A DNA stretch of 56,933 bases from an uncultured Bacteroidia bacterium (GTDB lineage: Bacteria; Bacteroidota; Bacteroidia; Bacteroidales; UBA932): positions 1 to 56,933 of the forward strand of contig CACZHP010000017.1 in assembly GCA_902780935.1 (NCBI GenBank), in the 5' to 3' direction. Under the pieces are notes generated by a model. The model ran no database searches and had not been told where the DNA came from. It was given only the letters and a program-made list of their open reading frames with translations. Below, in pieces: positions 1-35,692 of the stretch (positions are counted from its first letter, which is position 1; each line of letters starts with the position of its first letter). Both the position numbers and the translations under genes were made by a program.

Positions 1-1551
1 ACCGGAAAGGCCATGATCGTTGCCTTCTCTCGTCCTATTGCCATACGTATTTACAAGAGGATCCTGGAGCTAAGACCCGATTGGACAGAGAAGGTCAAGG
101 TCGTGATGACCGGCTCAAACAATGACCCTGAAGAATGGCATGAGATTGTAGGCAACAAACAATACAAGAAAGAGTTGGCCAAGAAGTTCAAGGATGACAA
201 GGATCCTATGAAGATCGCTATCGTTGTGGATATGTGGCTTACTGGATTCGATGTCCCTTCTTTGGCTACGATGTACGTGTACAAGCCCATGTCTGGGCAT
301 AATCTTATGCAGGCCATCGCTCGGGTCAATCGTGTGTATTCAGGTAAAGCCGGTGGCCTGGTAGTTGACTACATTGGAATTGCTAAGGCTCTCAAAGAGG
401 CTATGCGTGATTACACCAAGCAGGACCAAGAGAACTACGGCAATCCGGATATCAAGGAAACGGCCCTTGTCAAATTCAAAGAGAAGCTGGAGGTCTGCCG
501 CGACTTCTTCCACGGGTTCAATTATGCCAAGTTCCATTCGGGAACCGATGCTGACCGTGCTGAGATCATCAAAGGGGCAGTCAACTACATGCTCGCTCCT
601 GCAATGGACGAGCAGTGTACTTCCTTCCTCAAGGAATCCCTGCTTCTGAAGAATGCAGTAAGTCTTTGCCGCAGCCTCCTGAATGAAGAACAGCGCTTCG
701 AAGCCGCATTCTTCGAGACAGTGCGCACAGCTATTAACCGCATCAAGAATGTTAAGGTCAAGGTTTCCAAGAAGGAAATCAATCAGCGCATCAGCGAGCT
801 CCTAAAGCAGAGTATCAAGAGCGAGGGGGTAATCAACCTCTTCTCTGATGTCAAGGCAGAATTCTCTCTATTCGATGCCGCCTTCCTTGATGAGATTTCC
901 AAGATGAAAGAGAAGCACATTGCCATCGAACTCCTCAAGAAACTGCTCAAGGAACGCGTGCATCTTTATCAGCGCACCAACCTGGTACAGGCCCAGAAGT
1001 TCTCTGACCTCATCAATATGGCGCTTTCCAATTATCTGAAGGGCCTGCTTACAAACGAGGAAGTCATCAAGGAACTGCTGGATCTGGCGAAGGAAATTGC
1101 GCAGAACGAGCAGGTTGCCGACAGCCTCGGCCTCAACGCAGAGGAGAAGGCATTCTATGATGCCCTAACCCGGCCGCAGGCAGTGAAGGACTTCTACACC
1201 AACGAGCAGCTGGTCAACCTCACCAAGGAACTGACCGAAGAGCTTCGGAAAAATCGCACAATTGACTGGCAGAAAAAAGAGTCGGCTCGCGCCGGAATGC
1301 GCTCTAAGGTCAAGCGCCTGCTCAAGAAATATAAATACCCGCCGGAGGAGGAGCAGTCCGCTCTGGAGACGGTCATCCATCAGTGCGAGCAGTGGGCAGA
1401 TGTGGATGGTTCAGAATATGATGATTATAATACATCATCATACGTAGATGGCTATAATTCGAACACCAATATTTTCAACCCAACGTATTACCGTATGGTC
1501 GCTGATCCAAAAGGCCCTGATTATCGTGGCAGCATAATTGACGAAGAATAG
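1..1551 (+). CDS. hsdR: Type I restriction endonuclease subunit R (HsdR), C-terminal part
   Basis: The reading frame is open from base 1, so the gene begins upstream of the window; an internal ATG at 13 is not the true start. HsdR is the motor and nuclease subunit of type I restriction systems: it translocates unmethylated DNA with an SF2 helicase and cuts it. What is visible is the second RecA-like helicase domain: the segment around DMWLTGFDVPSL, then QAIARVNRVY, which matches helicase motif VI. A long helical region follows, with the C-terminal HsdR-type stretch ending near the acidic/Tyr/Asn-rich tail. The N-terminal nuclease and Walker A parts must lie outside the window. The TAG stop is followed directly by the ATG of the next gene, so the restriction genes are cotranscribed. 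The family call is firm; specificity and methylase subunits are not seen here. Confidence 0.9.
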   Translation, partial: TGKAMIVAFSRPIAIRIYKRILELRPDWTEKVKVVMTGSNNDPEEWHEIVGNKQYKKELAKKFKDDKDPMKIAIVVDMWLTGFDVPSLATMYVYKPMSGHNLMQAIARVNRVYSGKAGGLVVDYIGIAKALKEAMRDYTKQDQENYGNPDIKETALVKFKEKLEVCRDFFHGFNYAKFHSGTDADRAEIIKGAVNYMLAPAMDEQCTSFLKESLLLKNAVSLCRSLLNEEQRFEAAFFETVRTAINRIKNVKVKVSKKEINQRISELLKQSIKSEGVINLFSDVKAEFSLFDAAFLDEISKMKEKHIAIELLKKLLKERVHLYQRTNLVQAQKFSDLINMALSNYLKGLLTNEEVIKELLDLAKEIAQNEQVADSLGLNAEEKAFYDALTRPQAVKDFYTNEQLVNLTKELTEELRKNRTIDWQKKESARAGMRSKVKRLLKKYKYPPEEEQSALETVIHQCEQWADVDGSEYDDYNTSSYVDGYNSNTNIFNPTYYRMVADPKGPDYRGSIIDEE

Positions 1552-3375
1552 ATGGATAAACAGAAATATAACAATTACCCCTTGGCGATCAGCCAGATAC
1601 TAGGTCTAATTGAAGCCAACGATATTGCGATTCCGGAGATTCAGCGTCCATTCGTGTGGCGTCGTTCCCAGGTGCGTGACCTTATGGATTCTCTATACAA
1701 GGGTTATCCTACTGGCTACATCATCATCTGGAAGAACCCTTCCGTCAAGCTCAAGAATGGATCTCTTTCGGAAGGCAAGAAAGTTCTTATCGATGGGCAG
1801 CAGCGTATTACTGCTTTAATGACAGCCATTGCCGGTAAAACTATCGTGTTTGACGACTATAGTGAGGGTCGCGTCAAGATCGCTTTCGATCCTTTTGCCG
1901 CCCTCACAGAGAATCCGGATGCGGAATTGTTCGCCGTTCAGACTCCGGCTCATCTCAAAAGCAAGCGTTGGATTCCCGATATCGCTGAAATATTCAAATC
2001 CGATTTCTCTAGTTTCAAGTTCATCCACCAGTACGTTACGGATAACCCCGAGATGGATGAAGAGGCTCTGCATCGCGTGCTCGAAAGCTTGAAAAATCTT
2101 CAGCACTGCAATATTGGTGTGATCGAATTGGATGCCTCTCTAGATATTGATATTGTTACAGACATTTTTATCCGCATCAACTCAAAGGGGACGGCTCTCA
2201 GTCAGGGCGACTTCGTTATGTCCAAGATTGCAGCTGATGAGGTTCACGGAGGCAACACGCTTCGAAAGGTCGTTGATTATTTTGCCCATCTCTGCAAAGA
2301 TGGCACATTCTATAGCAAAATCAAGGAGAAGGATATAGCGTTCGCCTATTCCGGGTATCTTAACAAGCTCGAGTGGCTCAAGGATGACAAAGAAACTGTC
2401 TATGACCCAGAATGCGATGATGTCCTTCGCGTTGCTTTCATGCACCGCTGCAAAAGAGCTAAGTTGGCCGACCTTGTAGCAATGCTCTCCGGACGCGATT
2501 TCGAGACTCGAGAGTTCAAAGAAGAAATCGTTGAAAACACCTATAAGGAACTGGAGGCGGGTATAAACAATGTTATCAACGGCTACAACTTTTCCCAGTT
2601 TATGCTGGCGATCCGATCCGCAGGATTCACTTCAAAGAAATTAGTTAACTCGGTAATGGCTATCGATTTCGCTTATGCCGTGTATCTGATTCTGCAGGAA
2701 TCCAAAGAAGTCCCAGTTGATGAGATCAAGAGCCTCGTTCAGCGCTGGTATGTGCTTTCCGTCCTTACCGGGCGTTATAGTGCCTCTCCGGAATCTTCCT
2801 TTGCGAAGGACATCCGTGCTATTGGTGAAAATGGCGTAAAAGCTACACTAAAAGCAATTGAAGATGCCACTCTATCGGACAACTTCTGGAGCATTCAATT
2901 AAGCCAGAACCTGACCTTTGTGTCCTCCATCAACCCCACGTATCAGGTTTTCCTCGCTGCGCAGAACTTCTTCAAGAAAGACTCCCTTCTTTCCCATATC
3001 CCAGTCGGCGAACTCGTAAACCTGGGAGGAGACATCCATCACATTTTCCCGAAACAGTACCTAGTGGACAACGGCTACGATAAGCACGAATACAACCAGG
3101 TGGCCAACTACGCTTATCTCGATACTCCCATCAACATCAAGATTGGTAAGAAGGCCCCGAAGGTGTATCTGAACGAAGCGCTAGAGGCAATCAGAGGTGC
3201 GGAAGACACATCGTTCAAGTCCATCAAAACAGAGGATGAGTTTATCCGAAACCTTGAGGACAACTGCATTCCCATTGATATCCTAGAGATGGACCATACC
3301 CGCTATGCTGAATTCCTCGAAGCACGTCGAACCAAGATGACCGCTCTTATAAAGCAGTATTACAATAGTTTATAA
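1552..3375 (+). CDS. GmrSD-like DUF262 / HNH endonuclease
   Basis: A 607-residue protein with an N-terminal DUF262 (GmrS/ParB-like nucleotidase) domain: PEIQRPFVWRRSQV at about residues 28-41 and the hallmark DGQQR at 81-85. The C-terminal part carries an HNH/DUF1524-like nuclease signature, DIHHIFPK near residue 490 followed by a conserved Asn-Ala-Leu-Asn pattern (NYAYLDTPINIKIG). In the GmrSD/BrxU type IV family these domains use nucleotide hydrolysis to cut modified, for example glucosylated, phage DNA. The start codon follows the HsdR stop with no gap, and AbiH starts one base after its stop, so the three form one transcription unit. Target modification cannot be read from sequence. Lower GC than the downstream region suggests transfer. 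Confidence 0.88.
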   Translation: MDKQKYNNYPLAISQILGLIEANDIAIPEIQRPFVWRRSQVRDLMDSLYKGYPTGYIIIWKNPSVKLKNGSLSEGKKVLIDGQQRITALMTAIAGKTIVFDDYSEGRVKIAFDPFAALTENPDAELFAVQTPAHLKSKRWIPDIAEIFKSDFSSFKFIHQYVTDNPEMDEEALHRVLESLKNLQHCNIGVIELDASLDIDIVTDIFIRINSKGTALSQGDFVMSKIAADEVHGGNTLRKVVDYFAHLCKDGTFYSKIKEKDIAFAYSGYLNKLEWLKDDKETVYDPECDDVLRVAFMHRCKRAKLADLVAMLSGRDFETREFKEEIVENTYKELEAGINNVINGYNFSQFMLAIRSAGFTSKKLVNSVMAIDFAYAVYLILQESKEVPVDEIKSLVQRWYVLSVLTGRYSASPESSFAKDIRAIGENGVKATLKAIEDATLSDNFWSIQLSQNLTFVSSINPTYQVFLAAQNFFKKDSLLSHIPVGELVNLGGDIHHIFPKQYLVDNGYDKHEYNQVANYAYLDTPINIKIGKKAPKVYLNEALEAIRGAEDTSFKSIKTEDEFIRNLEDNCIPIDILEMDHTRYAEFLEARRTKMTALIKQYYNSL

Positions 3376-3376
3376 A

Positions 3377-4519
3377 ATGCCTGAATTAAGAAAGATAGTC
3401 CTTGTTCTCGGTAATGGTTTTGACCTGGACCTCGGTCTCAAAACATCTTACAAAGACTTTTGGGAGTCCGAGTTCTGTCCCAAGGATTATCCCGCTCCGC
3501 TTATAAAGCACTTGAATGAGCGATGGGACGATGACCTTGAAGCAGTACGTTGGTACGACCTGGAGAATGAGTTAATGAACTATTATCGGAAGGTTAGCTT
3601 ACCAGGGTCAAAGCTTGAAGTGATTACAAGAGAAGAAGAACTGTTTGTTAAAAACGTTAATCCTACCTATCTATCTTATAACATTGATCATAAGTATATT
3701 AATGAGGCCAACTCGTTGTTAAAGAAAGGCTATTTAGTTGAGAACCCCAAAATCATTCCAAGGTATTTGATGCCTTATAGAGAGGACATGCTGCAACCAA
3801 CTGTGTGGCGTGACCGAAAAGCGCTTGAACTCATCAAGGATGGGCTTTACAAGTATTTGAAATCCATTGAGAAACCGATTCCGGAAAGCTTATCCGTCGC
3901 TTTCCATCTACTTCTATCAATAAGCAAGTGTGTCGAAGCCGGTAACACGGTAAGCATCTATACTTTCAATTACACTCGCGTCCAGATGCAGGGACATAAC
4001 CTTAGAGATGTTCCTGTCAATTATATGCACGGCAGCTGCGAAGATGGGAAAATAATCGTCGGCACACGCGACGGAACACCAATTGAGCCAGAGTATGACT
4101 TTCTGCAAAAGGTGATGGACGACTCTTTCAACCCTCCGGACATCGTGTCTGCCTTGAATAAAACGGACGAAGTCATTGTTTTTGGGCACTCCCTCGGTGA
4201 GAATGACCGGCAATACTTTGAACAATTTTTCTCTATGCAGACGAGTATTGACAATCTCGCCAAGAAAGACATCTTCATTTTTACCCGAGACGATAACTCA
4301 AAGATTGAAATAAAGCGTGCACTAAAGAGTCTCACTGGCGACCGCCTCTCCATCCTATTAAGCACCAATCAACTTGTAATCATTCGGACTGGCAATCTCA
4401 AAGCAGACCAAAAGCTTCTCTATAACTTCCTAGTCGCACACCACAGCGACGAACACTACGCATCTGAGGTTATCGGAAAACTCTTAGCAAAAGAATCCAA
4501 AGAGGAAGAGAAGATATAG
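3377..4519 (+). CDS. AbiH family phage abortive infection protein
   Basis: A 380-residue protein with the AbiH N-terminal signature VLGNGFDLDLGLKTSYKDF at residues 9-27, an internal FNYTR motif and GHSLGENDRQYFEQFF near residue 274, all typical of the AbiH family. AbiH proteins block phage multiplication by an undefined abortive-infection mechanism; the GNGFD nucleotide-binding-like loop and GHSLG loop suggest a Rossmann-like, SIR2-like fold. No signal peptide is seen, so it is cytoplasmic. It starts one base after the DUF262 stop and completes a defence operon. The DNA is AT-rich and codon use differs from the following genes, in keeping with lateral acquisition. AbiH inside a type I RM operon is a plausible but not universal arrangement. 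Confidence 0.88.
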   Translation: MPELRKIVLVLGNGFDLDLGLKTSYKDFWESEFCPKDYPAPLIKHLNERWDDDLEAVRWYDLENELMNYYRKVSLPGSKLEVITREEELFVKNVNPTYLSYNIDHKYINEANSLLKKGYLVENPKIIPRYLMPYREDMLQPTVWRDRKALELIKDGLYKYLKSIEKPIPESLSVAFHLLLSISKCVEAGNTVSIYTFNYTRVQMQGHNLRDVPVNYMHGSCEDGKIIVGTRDGTPIEPEYDFLQKVMDDSFNPPDIVSALNKTDEVIVFGHSLGENDRQYFEQFFSMQTSIDNLAKKDIFIFTRDDNSKIEIKRALKSLTGDRLSILLSTNQLVIIRTGNLKADQKLLYNFLVAHHSDEHYASEVIGKLLAKESKEEEKI

Positions 4520-21991: not shown

Positions 21992-22939
21992 ATGCTTCTT
22001 ATGGCCAGAAAGACAAAATACGATTGCAGGGGAATAGCCCACATTTACCAGCGCGGCCTCAACATGTCTGTTATTTTCTATTCAGTCAAAGACATTCTTG
22101 TTTTCTATACCATTCTCTACGTATTGAAGAAGAAGTACAAGATCACCGTCCTGGGCATAGTTTTCATGTATAACCATTATCATTTGCTAATCAAAGCCAG
22201 GTCGCAGGAAGTAGTCTCCTGTTTCATGCGTGATCTTGAGACTGTTTTCTCAAAAGAATTCAACAAAGAGGCCGGGATCAAAGGGCATGTATTTGAACCG
22301 AGATATGGCTTGTCAAACAAAAATTGGGATAAGAAACAAAGGGAAGCTGCCGCTTATCTTTATAATAATCCGGTTGAGAAACAATTGTCAACCAGGGCAG
22401 TGGAGTTTAGATGGAACTTTCTGGCCTATGCGGTTTCAGACCACCCCTTTTCAGAAAAACTGGTTGTCAGAAAAGCTTCAACGCATCTTAAAAAATGCCT
22501 TCAGGAAGTCAGGTTCATGTTCAATCACGGGGCCTTTCTCAATTACACGGTATTGAAGAATTGCTTTAAAAGACTCTCATGGAATGAGATCAACCAACTC
22601 GTTGACTTCATCATAACAACCTATAACGTAGTCGATTACAAAGAAACAATAAATCTTTATGGTTCTTATGAGAAAATGTTGATAGCATTTGACTCGAACA
22701 CAGGAAGCGATCACGACATGAAGGAAGAATATTCCGACAATTCTTATAAAGGATATATCAGTTCGATAAAAGCCCTTTCAAATGTTTACAGATTCGCCGA
22801 TCCTAAAGATGTCCTCAAATTGAGTGCTGAGGGAAGACGGTTCCTGGCAAGAAAATTAGCCCATCAATTGAATGTCTCAAGATTCATCACCGAGACACTG
22901 CTACGTATCTATCAGCCCAAAAAGAAGCGTTTTTCGTAA
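21992..22939 (+). mobile_element. REP-associated tyrosine transposase (RAYT, Y1/HUH family)
   Basis: A 315-residue protein whose first ~160 residues are a Y1_Tnp (IS200-like) domain: the HUH metal motif is HYH at residues 62-64 in YNHYHLLI, and the catalytic tyrosine is expected at Y122 or Y124 in AYLYNNPVEK. The N-terminal HIYQRG strand is typical. The remaining ~150 residues are a basic helical extension. RAYTs nick and rejoin single-stranded hairpin (REP) DNA. Here the gene is flanked by hairpin elements E1 and E2, and its last codons overlap the left tip of E2. The DNA is much AT-richer than its neighbours. Unlike IS200 no second gene (TnpB) is present. It may be domesticated or mobile. 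Confidence 0.88.
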
Positions 22940-24339: not shown

Positions 24340-24380
24340 CTACCTGAAGATATTCAAGAGCTACCTGAAGATATTCAGGA
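24340..24380. repeat. Tandem duplication at the 3' end of the AGE epimerase gene
   Basis: Two copies of CTACCTGAAGATATTCARGA at 24340-24359 and 24361-24380 (period 21, one difference). The second copy contains the stop codon and last codons of the epimerase; the first is outside the gene. Confidence 0.75.
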
Positions 24381-25461
24381 CCTGGACGCAGGCGCGGGCG
24401 TCGTGCATGGGGAACATGCGGAAAGCGATCGTGTCGACAGAGTCGCCAAGATGCTCCTTGATGTAGTCCCATATACGCATGGCATAGTCAGCTCCCTCGG
24501 TGACACTCTGGTACTTCCAGGCGCACAGGTTGGCGATGAGCGCCTCTGCCTGCACCCAAGGAACCATCTGACTGTCAACCTCTCCGTCAGCGTCTTTCCC
24601 ATAGACGACAAAACCGTCCCCGCTCATCCCATCCATACCGGACTGATAAAGCTGGAAGCAGGTTTCCTTGACATGGCTGATCACGTCAATGTCCTGGATG
24701 GCATAAGCGGCGTCAAGGATCGACCAGGAGGCCTCTAGATCCAACCCGTACAGGCAGCCTGAGGGAACCGGGTTCCAGTCTTTAGTCAGCCTGGGCTCAA
24801 GGTGTCCTGAGGCTGGATTGTAGAACTCACTGACCATCACGTCGATAAGGTCGGCTATCACTCCCCGCAGGGAAGGATCCCTCCACACCCTGTAGAGGTT
24901 CGAGTAGCTCTCGAGAAGGTACAGGTGGGAGACCGCCAGACGGGACTCGTCCTTGACGGTGAAATCCCTGGTTAGGGCCTCTTTGTAACCTCCCAGCTCC
25001 AGGTCGTGAAATTCCTTCTCCACAATCTTGTAGAGATTGACGGCCTGTTTGAGGGACTCCTCATCCTTGGTGGCTCCGTAGAACTCGCTCAAAGCGTAGA
25101 TGGCGAGAGCCTGGTTGCTCAGAATAGCGTCGGTGTCTTTCTTCTCGCCCCAAGAATCGACATAGACAAAGGCCCCGCCGTACTTGTGGTCGATGAAGTG
25201 CTGGATGAAATAATCTTTGCCGTTCATGGCCGGCATCAGATATTCCTTCTTGCGGAACAGCCTGTAGGCGTTGGAGAAAGCCCAGATAATGCGCGCATTG
25301 AGCTGTTCCTCCCGGTCGGCGTCCTTGTCGGCGGCAAGCCCCTCGGCGATCTTCCCGTAGAAGCCGCCGCGGGGATCTTGCATGCCGGACCAGAACTTAA
25401 GGATATCCCACTCAAGGACTTCCCTGACTTCTTTCAAAAGAATGTCTGTTCTTCCTGTCAT
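24361..25461 (-). CDS. AGE-family epimerase, cellobiose 2-epimerase-like
   Basis: A 366-residue (alpha/alpha)6-barrel protein without signal peptide. Conserved blocks of the N-acylglucosamine 2-epimerase/cellobiose 2-epimerase family: NARIIWAFSNAYR, GGAFVYVDSWG, NQALAIYALSEFY, SHLYLLESYSNLYRVW, YGLDLEASWSILDAAY and VPWVQAEALI. These match cellobiose 2-epimerases, which turn beta-1,4-linked disaccharides into their mannose-ended epimers in the cytoplasm. It follows the DUF1080 gene by 18 bases in the same operon. The C-terminal FPMHDARACVQV block is somewhat diverged from the usual YHnsR motif, so activity on cellobiose is not certain. Confidence 0.82.
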   Translation of the reverse strand: MTGRTDILLKEVREVLEWDILKFWSGMQDPRGGFYGKIAEGLAADKDADREEQLNARIIWAFSNAYRLFRKKEYLMPAMNGKDYFIQHFIDHKYGGAFVYVDSWGEKKDTDAILSNQALAIYALSEFYGATKDEESLKQAVNLYKIVEKEFHDLELGGYKEALTRDFTVKDESRLAVSHLYLLESYSNLYRVWRDPSLRGVIADLIDVMVSEFYNPASGHLEPRLTKDWNPVPSGCLYGLDLEASWSILDAAYAIQDIDVISHVKETCFQLYQSGMDGMSGDGFVVYGKDADGEVDSQMVPWVQAEALIANLCAWKYQSVTEGADYAMRIWDYIKEHLGDSVDTIAFRMFPMHDARACVQVLNIFR

Positions 25462-28530: not shown

Positions 28531-29012
28531 TCATCATATTGGCCGTCCTGTGCGGCGTGATCGGAATCGCCGGGAGCATACTTCCCGGGCTGCCGGGGCC
28601 TCCCGTCAGCTGGGCCGGACTGCTCATCCTGTACATCTGGGGCAACGGGGCCAACGCCTCTGGGGATCCGATGTCAACCAAGTTCCTGCTGGTCTGGCTG
28701 GCCATCACCATTGTCGTATGCGTCGTCGATTATGTCGTCCCAGCCTACTTCACCAGGGTGACCGGAGGCAGTAAGGCAGCCGGCCGGGGAGCGATAATCG
28801 GCCTGCTGGTCGGAATGTTCGTGCCGCCCGTCGGTATCATCCTCGGAACCCTTGGAGGGGCTTTTCTCGCTGAATATCTGGTCGCACGCAAAGGAGGCTG
28901 GGATTCCGCCAGATCAGCCATCGGGGCACTCCTGGGCTTTTTCTTCGGAACAGGAATCAAACTTATAGCCAGCGGCCTGATGATGTATTATATCATCGTG
29001 TTCATGAAATGA
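28518..29012 (+). CDS. DUF456 membrane protein
   Basis: A 164-residue protein with four to five membrane helices and the DUF456 features: an N-terminal ILPGLPGPP loop after the first helix, a middle TGGSKAAGRGAIIGLLVGMF glycine-rich block, and GTLGGAFLAEYL. Function unknown; the family resembles small pore-forming or glycine-zipper membrane proteins. It overlaps the aminopeptidase stop by 13 bases and the next gene by ATGA, so it lies in the middle of a three-gene operon. Confidence 0.85.
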   Translation: MSTVIIILAVLCGVIGIAGSILPGLPGPPVSWAGLLILYIWGNGANASGDPMSTKFLLVWLAITIVVCVVDYVVPAYFTRVTGGSKAAGRGAIIGLLVGMFVPPVGIILGTLGGAFLAEYLVARKGGWDSARSAIGALLGFFFGTGIKLIASGLMMYYIIVFMK

Positions 29013-31777
29013 TAACCTACACCGACGATCTAAGGCGCCTGGCCTGGGGTACGGACGCCGGATTCTACAGGCTCGTCCCGAAGAAAGTGATCCTCTCCGA
29101 GAACGAGGAGGAGGTCCGTTCGATTCTCTCCGACTCGTCAAAGAATAAGATTCCCGTGACTTTCAGGGCCGCGGGAACCAGTCTTTCAGGCCAGTCGATT
29201 AGCGATTCAATTCTCCTGGTGGCCGGAAAGAACTGGGAGGGATTCAGCGTCAGTGAAGACGCCGGGACGATCACCCTTCAGCCGGGAATAGTCGGAGCGA
29301 GGGTCAACGCTATCCTCAAGCCCTTCGGGCGGAGATTCGGACCCGACCCGGCATCGATAGGTTCGTGCATGGTCGGGGGAATCGTGATGAACAACGCCTC
29401 CGGAATGAGCTGCGGGACCCATGCGAACTCCGACAAGACGATGATCTCGGCCAGGATGATACTCGCCGATGGAACAATCCTCGACACCGGGGATGAGACG
29501 TCCAAAGCCGAATTCAGGAAAAGTCATCCGGAGTTCCTCGCGGCGATTGAGAAGCTGCGGAAAGAAGTAATTCAAGATCAGGAGTTTACCGAGAGAATAA
29601 AGTACAAATATTCCATTAAGAATGTCACTGGTCTGAACCTCCTGCCGCTGGTGACTTTCGAGGATCCGTTCGACATAATCACCCACCTTCTGGTGGGTTC
29701 CGAGGGAACGCTAGCCTTCCTGAGCTCTGTCACGATGAAGACTCTCCCGATCGCCCCGTACAAGGCCAGCGCCATGATCTATTTCAGTTCGATCCGGGAG
29801 GCCGCGGAGGCGGTCGTGAGGATGAAGAAGGCTGTCGGACTGGAGGTGATCAACGCGGCCGAGCTTCTCGACAAAAGATCCCTCTCGTCGGTCTCCGACC
29901 CCATGCTGGAGAGACACCCCGGCACTGACCTGACTGCGGTGCTGACAGAGACCACGGCGGAGAGCCCGGAAGAACTCAAGGCCAACATCAAGGCGATCTC
30001 GGAGGTAGTAGGCGAAGTGGAGTTTACCAGCGATCCCGAAATATGCTCAAAATATTGGGCGATACGTTCCGGCATATTCCCATCAGTAGGAGGAATGCGC
30101 CGGCAGGGAACGACCTGCCTGATCGAGGACATCGCATTCCACATAGAGGATCTCCCGCAGGCCACAGAAGACCTGTCAGCCCTCCTGGACAAGCACGGCT
30201 ACGACGACTCCTGCATCTACGGCCATGCCCTTGAGGGCAATTTCCATTTCATCATCAACCAGTCATTCGACTCCGAAAGCGAGGTGAGACGTTACGAGGA
30301 TATGATCCGGGACGTCGCCAAGATGGTGGTGGAAAAATACGACGGCTCCCTGAAAGCCGAGCATGGAACCGGACGCAACATGGCTCCTTTCGTGGAATAT
30401 GAATGGGGCCCGAAAGCCTTCGGAATCATGAAAAGGATCAAGGAAATATTTGATCCTGAAGGGATTCTAAATCCCGGAGTGATATTCAACGACGATCCGG
30501 GATGCTTCCTGAAGGGTTTCAAGCCGCTTCCCGTACTTCCTTATGGAGAGAAGATCAACAAATGCATAGAGTGCGGCTTCTGCGAGGTCAACTGCGTCTC
30601 CTGCGGCTTCACACTCTCGTCCCGGACAAGGATCGTCATCCAAAGGGAAATAGCCCGCTTGAGGGCTTTGGAGAATCCGACAGAAGAGGAGTTGGGCAGG
30701 CTCCACAGGCTTGTGAAGGAATATTCATACCCCGGAGAGGAAACTTGCGCCGCTGACGGCCTATGCTCGATGTCCTGCCCTATGGGTATTGATGTCAGCG
30801 ACATGACCCACCTGATCCGTCAGGAAAAAACGCCGCCTGGATCCTTCCGAAGAAGGGTTTGGTCCCTCGCTGCGGATCATTTCCCGATAGTCAAGAGCGG
30901 GGTACGGGGAGCGTTGGGGCTGGCTTCAGCCGGAGACGCGATCTTGGGCGACAAGGTCATGACATCTTTAGGTCAAGGGCTCCACAAAGGACTCGGACTC
31001 CCCCTCTGGACTCCTTCCACACCTCGTCCTTTCCGGCCGGGACCCTTCGCTCCGCCCAGGATGACAGAAGCTCCCAAGGTCGTCTATTTCCCCTCCTGCC
31101 TCAACCAGATGATGGGCCTGCCCCGTCATAAAGCGGCCGTGGACAAGCCTCTGGTCGAGGAGATGACCTCGCTTCTTCACAAAGCGGGCTACGAGGTGAT
31201 ATTCCCGGAAGGCATGGAAAAACTCTGCTGCGGGATGATGTGGGAGAGCAAAGGAATGCCGGACATCGCGGAAAAGAAGTCCCAGGAACTTGAAGAGGCC
31301 TTGCTTAAGGCTTCGGAGAACGGCCGCTGGCCAGTGCTCTGCGACCAGAGTCCCTGCCTGCACAGGATGAGGAAGAACATCCGCTCCATGAAGCTTTATG
31401 AGCCGGCTGAGTTTATAATGACATTCCTCAAAGACCGGCTGGTCTTCCATCAGGACGACACTCCTGTCGCCATCCATGTCACCTGCTCCACAAAATTGAT
31501 GGGGCTGTCTGACACGATCATATCCCTCGCCAAGATGTGCTCGACCAATGTAATCGTGCCTGAAGAGGTTGGCTGCTGCGGCTTTGCCGGCGACAAGGGA
31601 ATGACCCATCCCGAGCTGAATTCATGGGCGCTCCGGAAGCTGAAGGACAGCGTGAAGGGGGCTAAGGCGGGATATTCCAACTCCAGGACTTGCGAGATAG
31701 GCCTGTCCGGACACTCCGGCATCCCTTATGCCTCGATAGCGTATCTCGTTGATTCTCACACCTCTCCCGCGGAATAA
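29009..31777 (+). CDS. FAD-linked oxidase with Fe-S and CCG domains (GlcD-GlcF/D-lactate dehydrogenase type)
   Basis: A 922-residue fused respiratory dehydrogenase. FAD-binding PCMH domain (VTFRAAGTSLSGQS, GRRFGPDPAS, VGSEGTLAF), FAD-oxidase C-terminal domain (GHALEGNFHF, KAEHGTGRN), two 4Fe-4S clusters (CIECGFCEVNC near 519 and CAADGLCSMSC near 580), then two CCG cysteine-rich domains (SCLNQMMG, CCGMMWES, TCSTKL, GCCGFAGDKG). Enzymes of this layout oxidise D-2-hydroxy acids such as lactate and pass electrons to quinone. No signal peptide; it works on the cytoplasmic face. Around residues 679-687 a Pro/Arg-rich linker is encoded by the repeat at 31044-31067. Substrate could be D-lactate, glycolate or a similar acid. 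Confidence 0.88.
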   Translation: MITYTDDLRRLAWGTDAGFYRLVPKKVILSENEEEVRSILSDSSKNKIPVTFRAAGTSLSGQSISDSILLVAGKNWEGFSVSEDAGTITLQPGIVGARVNAILKPFGRRFGPDPASIGSCMVGGIVMNNASGMSCGTHANSDKTMISARMILADGTILDTGDETSKAEFRKSHPEFLAAIEKLRKEVIQDQEFTERIKYKYSIKNVTGLNLLPLVTFEDPFDIITHLLVGSEGTLAFLSSVTMKTLPIAPYKASAMIYFSSIREAAEAVVRMKKAVGLEVINAAELLDKRSLSSVSDPMLERHPGTDLTAVLTETTAESPEELKANIKAISEVVGEVEFTSDPEICSKYWAIRSGIFPSVGGMRRQGTTCLIEDIAFHIEDLPQATEDLSALLDKHGYDDSCIYGHALEGNFHFIINQSFDSESEVRRYEDMIRDVAKMVVEKYDGSLKAEHGTGRNMAPFVEYEWGPKAFGIMKRIKEIFDPEGILNPGVIFNDDPGCFLKGFKPLPVLPYGEKINKCIECGFCEVNCVSCGFTLSSRTRIVIQREIARLRALENPTEEELGRLHRLVKEYSYPGEETCAADGLCSMSCPMGIDVSDMTHLIRQEKTPPGSFRRRVWSLAADHFPIVKSGVRGALGLASAGDAILGDKVMTSLGQGLHKGLGLPLWTPSTPRPFRPGPFAPPRMTEAPKVVYFPSCLNQMMGLPRHKAAVDKPLVEEMTSLLHKAGYEVIFPEGMEKLCCGMMWESKGMPDIAEKKSQELEEALLKASENGRWPVLCDQSPCLHRMRKNIRSMKLYEPAEFIMTFLKDRLVFHQDDTPVAIHVTCSTKLMGLSDTIISLAKMCSTNVIVPEEVGCCGFAGDKGMTHPELNSWALRKLKDSVKGAKAGYSNSRTCEIGLSGHSGIPYASIAYLVDSHTSPAE
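31044..31067. repeat. Copy of the CGCTYCGCYCAGGATGACAG repeat inside the Fe-S oxidase gene
   Basis: 24 bases matching the lacZ copy at 39598-39621 with two differences and in the same plus-strand orientation, although the host genes face opposite ways. Here it encodes part of a Pro-rich interdomain linker. Confidence 0.75.
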
Positions 31778-31843: not shown

Positions 31844-33379
31844 ATGGCTGAAGGCAAAGGGAAATATTGGATCATAGGACTGATCGGTTTCATAGTGGGA
31901 GCGATCCTCGTCGCGGCGTTCGACACCACCATGAACAAGACCTCCTCCAACGAGTACTGCATGAGTTGCCACACTCATGAGCAGGCCGATCTCGACTGGA
32001 AAAAATCCCCGCACTATCTCAGCCACAGCGGAGTCATGACAGACTGCGCCGCCTGCCACCTTCCCCCCAAGGAGGACGGCCTCATGAAATATTATGCGGC
32101 CAAGACCAGGATCGGAGTCCGGGATCTGTGGGTGAAGATGACCAAGGATTCTTCCGAGATCGACTGGGAGTCCAAGAGGCAGCTTGAGCACGCCCGCAAG
32201 ATCGTCTACAATTCATCTTGCGAAAGATGCCATGTGAACCTCTTCCCCGAAGGCATCTCCGACGACGGGATCACCGCCCACCTCCACTACGAGGAGAACG
32301 CCAAGAAACTCGGGCTGGACTGCATCAGCTGCCACCTCGACGTCGGTCACTACATGCCAGGCTACGAGCACAAGCGCATGGAGGGCAAGGTCTTCCAGAC
32401 AGAGGATGGGCCACGCTATGAGACGGCGGCCATCGTTTCCTCTTTCGAGAATTTCACTGAGACAGTCCCCGGAACAACTGCTGACATCAGGATGATCGCC
32501 ATCCCCGGAGGCGAGTTCATCATGGGCAGCTCCGGGAAGGAGCCGTTCCACAAAGAGGATGAAGGCCCCCAGAAAAAGGTCAAGGTCTCCCCGTTCTTCA
32601 TGGCTGAGACCGAGATCTCATGGAACCAGTTCTGGGCGTTCTACAACGAGACCATGTCCGAGGGACGGACCCCTCCGGAGAAGATATATGCCAACAACAA
32701 CCGTCCGGACGTGGATGCCGTGAGCGGCCCGACTCCCCCGTTCGGGTTCCCTGACCAGGGCTGGGGCATGGGTGAGCGGCCGGCCATCACGATGACCCAT
32801 TACGCCGCCGAGACCTTCTGCCAGTGGCTGTCCCTCAAGACCGGGCGCCACTACCGCCTCCCCACCGAGGCCGAGTGGGAATATGCCGCGAGAGGCGGGA
32901 CAGAGAGTCCATATTTCTTCGAAGGCAATCCGAAGAAGTTCGTCGGCAGCGGCCTTTTGGGCAAGTTGAAAGGGGCTGACACGACCATGATCGCCCGCTA
33001 TGTGGTCTATTCAGGCAACAGCGAGGGAAAGACCCAGGAGCCCGAATCAGTGGCAGCCAATCCGTTCGGACTCAAGAATATGCTTGGCAACGTCATGGAA
33101 TACTGCTCCGACTGGTACGCCGATGACGCGTATTCCAAGATCAAGGACGGCGCTCTCGATCCGACAGGTCCCGAAAGCGGGAAAGAGCATGTGGTCAGGG
33201 GCGGCAGCTACGCCGACGATGCGGCGGGTGTCCGCAGCGCCGCAAGAAGCCACACCGAGCACGACAAATGGCTCAAGACGGATCCGCAGAACCCGAAGAG
33301 TATCTGGTGGTACTCCGACATCAAGGGCATAGGATTCAGGGTCGTCTGCGATGTGCCGGAAGATGTGAAAGCAAATTAA
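31844..33379 (+). CDS. NapC/NrfH-like tetraheme cytochrome c fused to a SUMF1 (FGE-like) domain
   Basis: A 511-residue protein. Residues 8-27 are a single membrane anchor; four c-type heme motifs follow: CMSCH 39-43, CAACH 68-72, CERCH 126-130 and CISCH 160-164, the NapC/NirT/NrfH layout that takes electrons from quinol. From about 212 to the end is a SUMF1/FGE-sulfatase fold (MIAIPGGEFIMGSS, ETEISWNQFWAFYN, RLPTEAEWEYAARGG, NVMEYCSDWY, VRGGSYADDAAGVRSAARS, GIGFRVVC). The FGE catalytic cysteines are not conserved (VRSAARS has Ser where FGE has Cys, and NLGFRC is GIGFRVVC), so it is not a sulfatase-activating enzyme. It heads an operon with exported sugar oxidoreductase and isomerase genes. 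Periplasmic electron delivery is inferred. Confidence 0.88.
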   Translation: MAEGKGKYWIIGLIGFIVGAILVAAFDTTMNKTSSNEYCMSCHTHEQADLDWKKSPHYLSHSGVMTDCAACHLPPKEDGLMKYYAAKTRIGVRDLWVKMTKDSSEIDWESKRQLEHARKIVYNSSCERCHVNLFPEGISDDGITAHLHYEENAKKLGLDCISCHLDVGHYMPGYEHKRMEGKVFQTEDGPRYETAAIVSSFENFTETVPGTTADIRMIAIPGGEFIMGSSGKEPFHKEDEGPQKKVKVSPFFMAETEISWNQFWAFYNETMSEGRTPPEKIYANNNRPDVDAVSGPTPPFGFPDQGWGMGERPAITMTHYAAETFCQWLSLKTGRHYRLPTEAEWEYAARGGTESPYFFEGNPKKFVGSGLLGKLKGADTTMIARYVVYSGNSEGKTQEPESVAANPFGLKNMLGNVMEYCSDWYADDAYSKIKDGALDPTGPESGKEHVVRGGSYADDAAGVRSAARSHTEHDKWLKTDPQNPKSIWWYSDIKGIGFRVVCDVPEDVKAN

Positions 33380-33400: not shown

Positions 33401-34765
33401 ATGAGCGAAAACAAAATGGACAGAAGATCCTTTCTCGGCACAAGTGCCAAGATAGGAGTTGTCGGTGTAGTCGGTGGCGGTGCCCTGCTCGCCTCTTGCG
33501 CGAAAAAGGAGAAAGGCCCCGTGTACACTCCTCTTAGACAACCCGGCGAGTACTACATTCCCGAACTTCCCGACAAGGCCATCGAGGGCAAGCCTCTCAA
33601 GGCTGGTGTCATCGGTTGCGGAGGCCGTGGTTCAGGCGCTATCATGAACCTTCTTGACGCCGCTGACGGAATCACCGTCACAGCCCTTGGAGACACTTTC
33701 GCCGACAGGCTCGAAAGCCTGAAAACCAAGCTGAAAGATCAGAGGAACCAGGTGGTTCCCGATGAGAACTGCTTTGTCGGTTTCGACGCCTACAAGAAAG
33801 TCATCGACTCCGGCGTGGACATGGTTGTCGTCGCCACTCCCCCCGTGTTCCGTCCGACCCATTTCCAGTACGCCACCGAGAAGGGTGTCCACTCCTTCCT
33901 CGAGAAGCCTATCGCGGTCGACGCGAAGGGCTACCGCCTCATCATGGCCACGGCAAAGCAGGCTGAGGCCAAGGGTCTGAGCGTTGTCTGCGGAACCCAG
34001 CGCCACCACCAGCGCCCCTATGTCGAGGCATTCAAGAAGATCCAGGAAGGCATGATCGGTGAGATCACCGGTGGCAACGTCTATTGGAACCAGGGTATGC
34101 TTTGGTACAGGGAGCGCCAGAAGGGTTGGAGCGACATGGAGTGGATGATCCGCGACTGGGTCAACTGGAAGTGGCTCTCCGGCGACCACATCGTCGAGCA
34201 GCATGTCCACAACATCGACGTGTTCAACTGGATGTTCGGCTACAAGCACCCCGTCAAGGCCACCGCTTTCGGAAGCCGCCAGCGCAGGATCACCGGCGAC
34301 CAGTACGACTTCTTCAGCGTCGATTTCGAATATGAGAACGGCGTCCATCTCCACAGCATGTGCCGCCAGATCGACGGTTGCTCCAACAATATCAGCGAAG
34401 AGGTCCACGGTACCAAGGGCTATTGGAAATCCGCCGACGACGCGATCTTCGACCTCCAGGGCAACAAGATCTGGGAATTCGATTATGAGGCCATGAGGGC
34501 TGAGCACACCCAGGAGGATCCTTACGTCCTCGAGCATGTGGATTGGGTCAACCATATCCGCAAGGGCACAGCCCATGTCGAGGCCGGCGAGTGCGGAATG
34601 TCCTCCCTCTGCGGAGTGATGGGCCGCGAGGCCGCCTACACGGGCCAGACGATCGAATGGGACCAGATCAGTGCGGCTGATCTTGACTATCTCCCCGCGA
34701 AGCTTGAGTTGGGAAAGATGGACATGAAGAATTACACTGTGGCTAAACCTGGAACCGGAAAATAG
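33401..34765 (+). CDS. Tat-exported Gfo/Idh/MocA oxidoreductase lipoprotein
   Basis: A 454-residue protein. DRRSFLGTSAKIGVVG is a twin-arginine signal and LLASC gives a lipobox Cys at residue 33. The mature part is a Gfo/Idh/MocA dinucleotide-binding fold (GVIGCGGRGSGA near residue 70; FLEKPIAVD, the conserved EKP lysine motif; QHVHNIDVFNWMFGYKHP). Because NAD(P) is scarce in the periplasm, exported members carry a tightly bound cofactor and often catalyse redox-neutral or coupled sugar reactions, such as C3 oxidation of glycosides in gut Bacteroides. It lies 22 bases after the cytochrome-SUMF1 gene and 6 before a TIM-barrel gene. Exact substrate unknown. Confidence 0.88.
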   Translation: MSENKMDRRSFLGTSAKIGVVGVVGGGALLASCAKKEKGPVYTPLRQPGEYYIPELPDKAIEGKPLKAGVIGCGGRGSGAIMNLLDAADGITVTALGDTFADRLESLKTKLKDQRNQVVPDENCFVGFDAYKKVIDSGVDMVVVATPPVFRPTHFQYATEKGVHSFLEKPIAVDAKGYRLIMATAKQAEAKGLSVVCGTQRHHQRPYVEAFKKIQEGMIGEITGGNVYWNQGMLWYRERQKGWSDMEWMIRDWVNWKWLSGDHIVEQHVHNIDVFNWMFGYKHPVKATAFGSRQRRITGDQYDFFSVDFEYENGVHLHSMCRQIDGCSNNISEEVHGTKGYWKSADDAIFDLQGNKIWEFDYEAMRAEHTQEDPYVLEHVDWVNHIRKGTAHVEAGECGMSSLCGVMGREAAYTGQTIEWDQISAADLDYLPAKLELGKMDMKNYTVAKPGTGK

Positions 34766-34771
34766 ATCATC

Positions 34772-35692
34772 ATGGACAGAAGATCATTCCTCAAGACATC
34801 AGCGATAGGAGGGGCGGCCGTAGCCGCCTCCTCCATCATTCCCGCCTGCGCCTCCTCAAAGGACGGCAAAAAAGCCGCGGGTGAGGTGGTCCCCCTAAAC
34901 CTCTCCTTCCAGGAGGGTATCGCTCCCGGGGAGACCCTGGCGGAGAAACTCGACTTCATGGAGAATCTCGGCATCGTCGGTTTCGAGCCCGGAGGCCGCG
35001 GACTGAAAGGCCGCGTCAAGGAGATCCAGGATGCCCTTAGCGGCCGTAACATCAAGGTCAGCGCCATCTGCGCCGGTTTTGACGGCTTCATCCTCGCTGA
35101 GGATCCCGCTGTCAAGAACCAGTTTGACACGACCATGCGCGAGATCGTGGAGGCCGCCGGTGAGCTTGGCTCAACGGGTGTCATCATGGTTCCCGCTTTC
35201 AACGGCCAGCAGCCTTGCAAGCCCCACAACCAGGAGACCCGCGACTACCTCTGCGAAGAGCTCCACAAGCTCGGAGAGTTCGCCAAGAGCTGCGGGACTA
35301 CCGTGATACTTGAGCCGCTCAACCGCAAGGAGTGCTTCTACCTGAGACTTGTGGCTGACGGAGCCGCTATCGCACGAGATGCTGACAGTGAAGGAGTAAA
35401 GGTCATGGGCGACTTCTGGCACATGCAGGAGGAAACCTCTGACTACGGAGCCTTCATGTCCGCCGGCAAGAAGTATCTGCAGCATGTCCACATGGCCAGC
35501 CGCGGCAAACGCCGCATGCCTGGCGAGGACGGAGCTGTCGACAACTACGTGGACGGATTCAAGGCTCTCCAGCAGATCGGCTACGAGAAGTATGTCTCTT
35601 TCGAGTGCGGCTGCGGCGGCGACAGGGCCACCCTTGTGACCAACGCCGTCAATCTCCTCCGCGCCCAGTGGGAAGAGGCCAAGGGATGCTGA
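34772..35692 (+). CDS. Tat-exported sugar isomerase/epimerase (TIM barrel)
   Basis: A 306-residue AP-endonuclease-2-fold protein with a twin-arginine signal (MDRRSFLKTSAIGGAA) and lipobox Cys 26 (IIPAC). The mature domain has the metal-binding features of the xylose-isomerase-like superfamily: ILEPLNRKECF (Glu), GDFWHMQEE (Asp, His), HVHMASRG and VSFECGCGG (final Glu). Such proteins isomerise or epimerise keto sugars, which fits a 3-keto intermediate made by the preceding oxidoreductase. The following HAD gene begins inside its last codons. Confidence 0.85.
   Translation: MDRRSFLKTSAIGGAAVAASSIIPACASSKDGKKAAGEVVPLNLSFQEGIAPGETLAEKLDFMENLGIVGFEPGGRGLKGRVKEIQDALSGRNIKVSAICAGFDGFILAEDPAVKNQFDTTMREIVEAAGELGSTGVIMVPAFNGQQPCKPHNQETRDYLCEELHKLGEFAKSCGTTVILEPLNRKECFYLRLVADGAAIARDADSEGVKVMGDFWHMQEETSDYGAFMSAGKKYLQHVHMASRGKRRMPGEDGAVDNYVDGFKALQQIGYEKYVSFECGCGGDRATLVTNAVNLLRAQWEEAKGC

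Follow-up and report, generated by a model that had tools for sequence, protein, structure and literature searches.

In a stretch of 56,933 nucleotides from an uncultured Bacteroidia bacterium of the Bacteroidales (contig CACZHP010000017.1, in the following the window, meaning the whole stretch analysed), a single gene was found to join a tetraheme NapC/NrfH-type cytochrome to a SUMF1 domain that lacks the catalytic pair of FGE (31844..33379, + strand). Relatives of this gene recur in many genomes, and nearly all of them adjoin a gene for an exported Gfo/Idh/MocA oxidoreductase. To the reading that the fused protein serves this exported sugar oxidoreductase as its membrane subunit for electron transfer, with the SUMF1 domain as binding partner and the haems leading to menaquinone, we give about an even chance.

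We know of no free NAD pool in the compartment that receives the exported Gfo/Idh/MocA oxidoreductases of Bacteroidota, and a recurrent SUMF1 partner, accompanied by either ApbE or a tetraheme quinone-type module, offers a testable answer to the question of how such enzymes dispose of their electrons. If true, nicotinamide-dependent sugar oxidation outside the cytoplasm would feed the respiratory chain, and rumen and gut anaerobes would gain sugar oxidation as a part of their respiration. The SUMF1 domain is here also encountered far from sulfatase maturation. Among the open-licence PMC papers listed in literature searches, neither the fusion nor the SUMF1-oxidoreductase pair was described in a title or abstract beginning.

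Gene and domain layout

The gene is an intact ORF of 511 amino acids with an ATG start. The N-terminal anchor helix (residues 5-33, 31856..31942, +) is seen as a helix in the predicted model, the Pfam span beginning at residue 9, and is followed by four CxxCH motifs at Cys39, Cys68, Cys126 and Cys160 (31958..32335, +), which were placed by alignments of relatives, and by a SUMF1/FGE-fold domain (residues 217-505, 32492..33358, +), which was delimited by Pfam, alignment and structure matches. Both parts exceed the Pfam cut-offs, with Cytochrom_NNT (PF03264) covering residues 9-172 (E 4e-29) and FGE-sulfatase (PF03781) residues 217-472 (E 6e-41), and none of 20000 shuffled versions of the sequence reached four CxxCH motifs. 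The mean share of the commonest residue is 0.83 in the SUMF1 part (columns 213-505) versus 0.74 in the cytochrome part. The predicted model of the fused protein is of low confidence (pLDDT 65.7) and served fold matching only. The first-pass annotation had placed an anchor, four CxxCH motifs and a SUMF1/FGE-like domain in one protein, and the ORF, the Pfam matches and the model helix bear this out.

Judged by its residues, the cytochrome part is a relative of NapC/NrfH. Cys39, Cys68, Cys126, Cys160, His45 and Lys87 are conserved in all 58 aligned fused sequences and Asp94 in 57 of them, and the haem motifs, His45, Lys87 and Asp94 are kept in 20/20 divergent fused sequences as well. Among solved structures NrfH 2j7a is matched weakly (E 0.012); in the alignment, Lys87 and Asp94 are matched by a Lys and an Asp in this protein, which we take to be the quinone-site residues Lys82 and Asp89 of NrfH, and His45 stands where 2j7a has a Met after the first CxxCH, presumably the haem-1 ligand. 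The fused protein stays below the NCBIfam cut-offs of NrfH (58.6 of 134.2 bits), NapC-NirT (60.6 of 310.6) and TorC (79.1 of 478.2).

Elsewhere in the window lie, at its start, defence-like genes (13-4519, +), which comprise GmrSD-N and AbiH domains and a piece of a type I restriction R subunit, and a gene for an IS200-like (Y1) transposase domain protein (21992-22939, +).

Distribution of the fusion

A scan of genome contigs yielded 303 relatives, of which the best 80, matching over nearly the full length, were kept as loci; many of their flanks end at contig ends. By their titles, these best 80 of 303 belong to Bacteroidales or Bacteroidia and are for the most part gut and rumen MAGs, and 79 of them retain all four CxxCH motifs. 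In L014 (639-2171) the fourth haem motif is without its first Cys (SISCH), either a genuine loss or a sequencing error. Within the window's order the fused protein was matched at E <= 1e-60 in 51 of 393 genomes and 27 of 206 genera. A sample of 395 genomes of the phylum held the fused form in three, namely the window's own genome, a second genome of its order, and G345, which is listed as sharing only the phylum, so that the fusion is not confined to this order.

An assembly join or a frameshift, named in the first-pass annotation as what would speak against the fusion, is ruled out, since the same fusion repeats in many separately assembled genomes, as the best 80 of the 303 relatives and the 51 of 393 genomes of the order attest. 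In a tree of SUMF1 domains, which included 13 of the 80 kept loci and left out L150 and L154 owing to the motif filter, all 34 fused domains among its 91 tips fell into a single group with a support of 0.73, and this grouping is consistent with one single fusion event. The most divergent fused sequence, L154, is outside this tree. In the best reading, it was a lineage mainly of (gut) Bacteroidales that fused the SUMF1 domain to the tetraheme module.

The SUMF1 domain and FGE

We assume that Cys346 of human FGE is placed in the segment RCAARS and Cys365 in GFRC. The cysteines of these two segments had been regarded as catalytic in the first-pass annotation, but they belong to the structural disulfides Cys346-Cys235 and Cys365-Cys218, and the active-site pair of human FGE is Cys336/Cys341 (accessible parts of PMC4505483). 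Formylglycine chemistry nevertheless stays unlikely as it had been proposed, on another ground, namely that the true catalytic pair is absent as well: in the catalytic segment (columns 457-462) no Cys was found among the residues listed for 58 aligned fused sequences, the listing being confined to columns with at least three Cys and to the six most frequent residues of each column, and the Cys of this segment are also absent from 20 further, divergent fused sequences scored for residues, L150 and L154 having been left out by the motif filter. By alignment, the SUMF1 domain of the fusion is one that has lost the FGE catalytic pair.

Other cysteines are retained. RCAAR with its Cys is present in 37 of the 58 relatives, and Cys326, Cys421 and Cys502 are invariant in all 58; among the divergent sequences (n = 20) they occur in 20, 17 and 18, respectively. 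In FGE numbering, we take Cys326 to correspond to the Cys218 position and Cys502 to stand two residues beyond that of Cys365. Standalone SUMF1 proteins, aligned for 26 of 27 sequences (L119 was left out by the motif filter), carry Thr at 421 in 24 and Arg at 502 in 22 cases.

As to sulfatases, the statement that the window holds none stood up to Pfam searches of 35 of its ORFs and to tblastn with six of the genome's own sulfatases, neither of which gave a match. The whole genome contains 11 sulfatase-family matches, and all six that were inspected are of the Ser type; a match to one of these six lies near 1 of 102 fused loci. The motif CxPxR occurs in 0 of 47 downstream oxidoreductases. Homologues with intact FGE cysteines alongside sulfatases had been named as contrary evidence, and here the RCAAR Cys does persist in part of the relatives, but the catalytic pair was seen in none of the aligned sequences, and there is no sulfatase link. 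With the catalytic Cys pair absent, no sulfatase link and no CxPxR in the oxidoreductases, a function as FGE was rejected.

The exported oxidoreductase and other neighbours

Only 21 bases behind the fused gene begins the gene of a Gfo/Idh/MocA oxidoreductase with RRSF signal and lipobox (33401..34765, +). The nucleotide-binding glycine loop and the EKP motif are invariant in 47 relatives, and the predicted model (pLDDT 86.4) is nearest to inositol and sugar dehydrogenases. Among 75 oxidoreductases of more than 400 residues from the best 80 of 303 loci, RRxF was found in 51 and a lipobox in 74. Whether proteins of the same architecture always sit beside such a gene, as had been asked earlier, can be answered with one exception: the oxidoreductase follows directly downstream in 80/80 of the best 80 of 303 loci and is present in 19 of 20 regions of a divergent fused set (17 additional genomes, with 44-62% identity to the protein of the window), directly next in 18 and two genes on in L139, but absent near L145, the genome of which holds a second fused copy, L146, with oxidoreductase.

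After a gap of 6 bases follows a TIM-barrel protein (AP_endonuc_2) with a Tat signal according to Pfam (34772..35692, +), which matches PDB 3kws strongly and the 3-keto-D-glucoside 4-epimerase 6wn6 more weakly. This gene is present in 75 of the best 80 of 303 fused loci and in just 6 of the 20 divergent regions, one of these at 22% identity; 73 of its proteins show RRxF in 42 and a lipobox in 54 cases. Upstream, on the minus strand, lie a two-copy 3-keto-disaccharide hydrolase (PF06439; 25480..26796), found in the same position in 18/80 loci and also upstream in L125 and L132, and a GlcNAc 2-epimerase-like protein (24361..25461), likewise in 18/80 loci. A 19th PF06439 match (33%) sits elsewhere in L045. 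Taken by their sequences, the neighbour genes suggest a chemistry of keto sugars. ResB and CcsA, which are genes of cytochrome c maturation, were each detected downstream in 31/80 loci, both together in 26.

Between DUF456 and the cytochrome gene the window carries an FAD oxidase/Fe-S/CCG fusion that is GlcD/YdiJ-like (29009-31777, +). It was considered as a constant partner and rejected, being matched in merely 7/80 loci.

Haem-free SUMF1 genes and ApbE

In the phylum sample, the SUMF1 genes closest to the fused domain mostly encode about 320-360 residues and have no CxxCH. Pairing was counted over 90 SUMF1 hits, a set complete for E < 1e-30. For hits at E < 1e-45 the oxidoreductase clade lay within 2.5 kb in 26 of 30 cases (23/27 standalone, 3/3 fused), with SUMF1 upstream and on the same strand in all 26, and for E 1e-45 to 1e-30 the two were paired in 15 of 27.

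The oxidoreductase clade itself amounted to 108 hits in 64 genomes. Since greedy ORF picking had dropped genes to antisense frames in 10 of 105 loci, the core counts were repeated with all ORFs, which gave 110 oxidoreductase ORFs in 105 loci, 75 of them at >= 565 bits (core). SUMF1 lies within 1 kb of 55 core genes, on the same strand in 55/55, and 64/75 have at least one of two neighbours, SUMF1 at this distance or ApbE at up to 1.5 kb. Non-fused core genes differ from lower-scoring paralogues both in SUMF1 within 1 kb (52/72 vs 5/35) and in ApbE within 1.5 kb (35/72 vs 5/35), in a comparison where the 565-bit border was picked after the scores were known, the Fisher tests ignore relatedness, some loci contribute two counted genes and the profiles for ApbE, SUMF1 and oxidoreductase were built from members of the same loci. 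The tie between SUMF1 and the exported Gfo/Idh/MocA protein, which had been suspected from the window, thus holds for non-fused core genes (52/72) as for the fused (80/80) and divergent (19/20) forms.

Of those 35 core cases, 23 have ApbE on the same strand and 12 on the opposite one. Six ApbE-type proteins (L130, L129, L133, L188, L189, L190) were all identified as ApbE in Pfam. ApbE was found in 0/102 fused loci with greedy ORFs, in agreement with tblastn using one ApbE, and the window's genome has one ApbE gene, away from the fused locus. The standard flavinylation motif is found in none of the ORFs of 37 ApbE loci and once among 562 other-type ORFs elsewhere. In L129 (9198-17147) a standalone SUMF1, a YceI-like protein, ApbE, PSCyt1/DUF1549/DUF1553 and DUF1501 stand in a row without oxidoreductase; going by gene order, this is a second SUMF1-ApbE setting, apart from the oxidoreductase. 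In L190, L192, L193 and L194 ApbE adjoins the same oxidoreductase clade, with SUMF1 not detected nearby, and is followed by small proteins with an RR signal, at least one of them a TIM-barrel.

Proposed mechanism and alternatives

In the mechanism we favour, the exported, lipid-anchored Gfo/Idh/MocA enzyme would oxidise a sugar or glycoside. The product, probably a keto sugar, would be processed by the TIM-barrel neighbour and the upstream 3-keto-disaccharide hydrolase. The SUMF1 domain would be the dedicated binding partner of the oxidoreductase, and the four haems would pass the electrons to menaquinone at a quinone site of the NapC/NrfH type, while in the haem-free relatives a flavin supplied or held by the ApbE-family protein may take the role of the haems. 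The mechanism is supported by the pairing of the genes in fused, divergent and haem-free loci, by ApbE beside the haem-free versions and its absence from the fused loci, by the single group of fused SUMF1 domains, by the ResB and CcsA genes, by a genome with one NapC-type gene and no NrfA or molybdopterin oxidoreductase match, by the conserved haem motifs, Lys87 and Asp94, and by the keto-sugar-type neighbours. Against it count L145 with no such oxidoreductase close by, the TIM-barrel gene in just 6 of the 20 divergent regions, the rarer pairing of weaker SUMF1 hits, ApbE on the opposite strand in 12 of 35 core cases, the weak similarity of the oxidoreductase to characterised glycoside 3-dehydrogenases and the low confidence of the model of the fused protein. 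The contact, the electron direction, the substrate and the coupling of a two-electron nicotinamide to one-electron haems are what we infer, and this coupling is the weakest point of the mechanism: for NADH to pass electrons straight to haem would be chemically awkward, the fused loci showed no flavin gene, no flavin site was identified, and the 37 ApbE loci gave no standard flavinylation motif. More tentatively, and less likely than not, the loci could represent a class of respiratory sugar dehydrogenases in which an exported NAD-type Gfo/Idh/MocA enzyme with SUMF1 has an exchangeable outlet, ApbE-flavin in many Bacteroidota and a fused tetraheme menaquinone reductase in the lineage mainly of gut Bacteroidales.

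Electron direction was assessed from the remaining genome, which is about 97% complete, so that an undetected reductase is possible. It contains one NapC-type gene and no match to NrfA or to a molybdopterin oxidoreductase of the Nap, Tor or Dms type, both of which were rejected as haem partners for this genome; hence the haems most likely take electrons of the oxidoreductase to menaquinone. Of the two directions, the flow from menaquinol to a periplasmic partner given in the first-pass annotation seems the less likely one, since an NAD-type sugar oxidoreductase is the sole partner in evidence and neither reductase was found. NapC/NrfH proteins do mostly oxidise quinol, and this usual behaviour, together with the retained Lys and Asp that align with NrfH, would fit outward electrons, by which menaquinol is oxidised and SUMF1 or another partner reduces a periplasmic substrate in the classical manner. 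We nevertheless regard this as quite unlikely, as it is opposed by the lack of NrfA and molybdopterin oxidoreductase matches in the genome, by the His that replaces the haem-1 Met of NrfH and by the potentials, menaquinol being unable to reduce NAD readily.

Somewhat more weight, though still on the unlikely side, is due to a SUMF1 domain that acts as structural or docking scaffold in the manner of GldK/PorK and holds the oxidoreductase at the membrane, with haems that serve another redox protein. PorK structures match the domain, the best NCBIfam match is GldK, if far under its cut-off (101.6 vs 350 bits), and haem-free pairs of SUMF1 and oxidoreductase occur; yet the genome gave no classical NapC/NrfH partner for such haems, and it is the same oxidoreductase that the haem fusion repeatedly adjoins. 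That SUMF1 is instead a catalytic oxidase like PvdO or FGE, which matures the oxidoreductase or a cofactor with menaquinone replacing O2 by way of the haems, agrees with the top target-normalised TM-score of PvdO (0.68) among the 50 matches listed and with the mostly gut and rumen origin of the best 80 of 303 fused loci, but the missing FGE Cys pair and CxPxR in 0/47 oxidoreductases make it very unlikely. Gene adjacency through shared regulation alone, with no functional complex, is scarcely credible to us, given that the pairing repeats throughout the phylum sample and that SUMF1 shares the strand of the oxidoreductase in 55/55 core cases within 1 kb.

Comparison with known systems

The fused protein has the anchor, the four CxxCH motifs, PF03264 and the aligned Lys and Asp in common with NapC/NrfH, but differs by its C-terminal SUMF1 domain, by a His at the haem-1 Met position and by NCBIfam scores below the cut-offs. 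TorC carries a further C-terminal domain, and an extra C-terminal domain is thus a TorC-like trait of the fused protein. Its SUMF1 domain shares fold and PF03781 with FGE/SUMF1, PvdO and GldK/PorK, yet in contrast to FGE it has neither the catalytic pair nor a sulfatase link, and GldK (101.6 of 350 bits) and PvdO (88.9 of 500) are scored under their NCBIfam cut-offs.

The surrounding genes resemble glycoside 3-oxidation systems (LacABC with DUF1080, BT2157/BT2158 and P2B11) in that an exported oxidoreductase has PF06439 and a TIM-barrel protein of epimerase-like type close by; YcjS/YcjR presumably also counts among them. As traits of a glycoside 3-dehydrogenase the downstream gene shows the Gfo/Idh/MocA fold, the glycine loop and the EKP lysine. 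It scores 23.5 bits with BT_2158_fam (NCBIfam), where the cut-off is 750, and matches P2B11 weakly (E 9e-9), so that the similarity to characterised glycoside 3-dehydrogenases is weak and oxidation at C3 putative. LacABC resembles the window system further in its periplasmic, membrane-bound oxidation, and 3-dehydrogenases of its type are thought to act with DUF1080/PF06439 proteins (accessible parts of PMC9007349). In Agrobacterium, one operon unites 3-oxidation and beta-elimination with a Gfo oxidoreductase (accessible parts of PMC10628242), and in the accessible parts of both accounts neither SUMF1 nor a NapC-type protein is mentioned. What sets the window apart from glycoside 3-oxidation systems is its likely electron carrier, the fused tetraheme-SUMF1 protein.

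With ApbE-linked extracytosolic flavin electron transfer (PMC8238504, PMC11334425, PMC12052999, each in its accessible parts) the likeness is that ApbE adjoins the haem-free SUMF1 version; the difference is that the standard flavinylation motif was not found at the 37 ApbE loci. The main text of these three articles contains none of the terms SUMF1, formylglycine and MocA. The fused protein is best filed, by its domains and scores, as a variant within the NapC/NrfH kind and not as a member of FGE, NrfH, PvdO or GldK.
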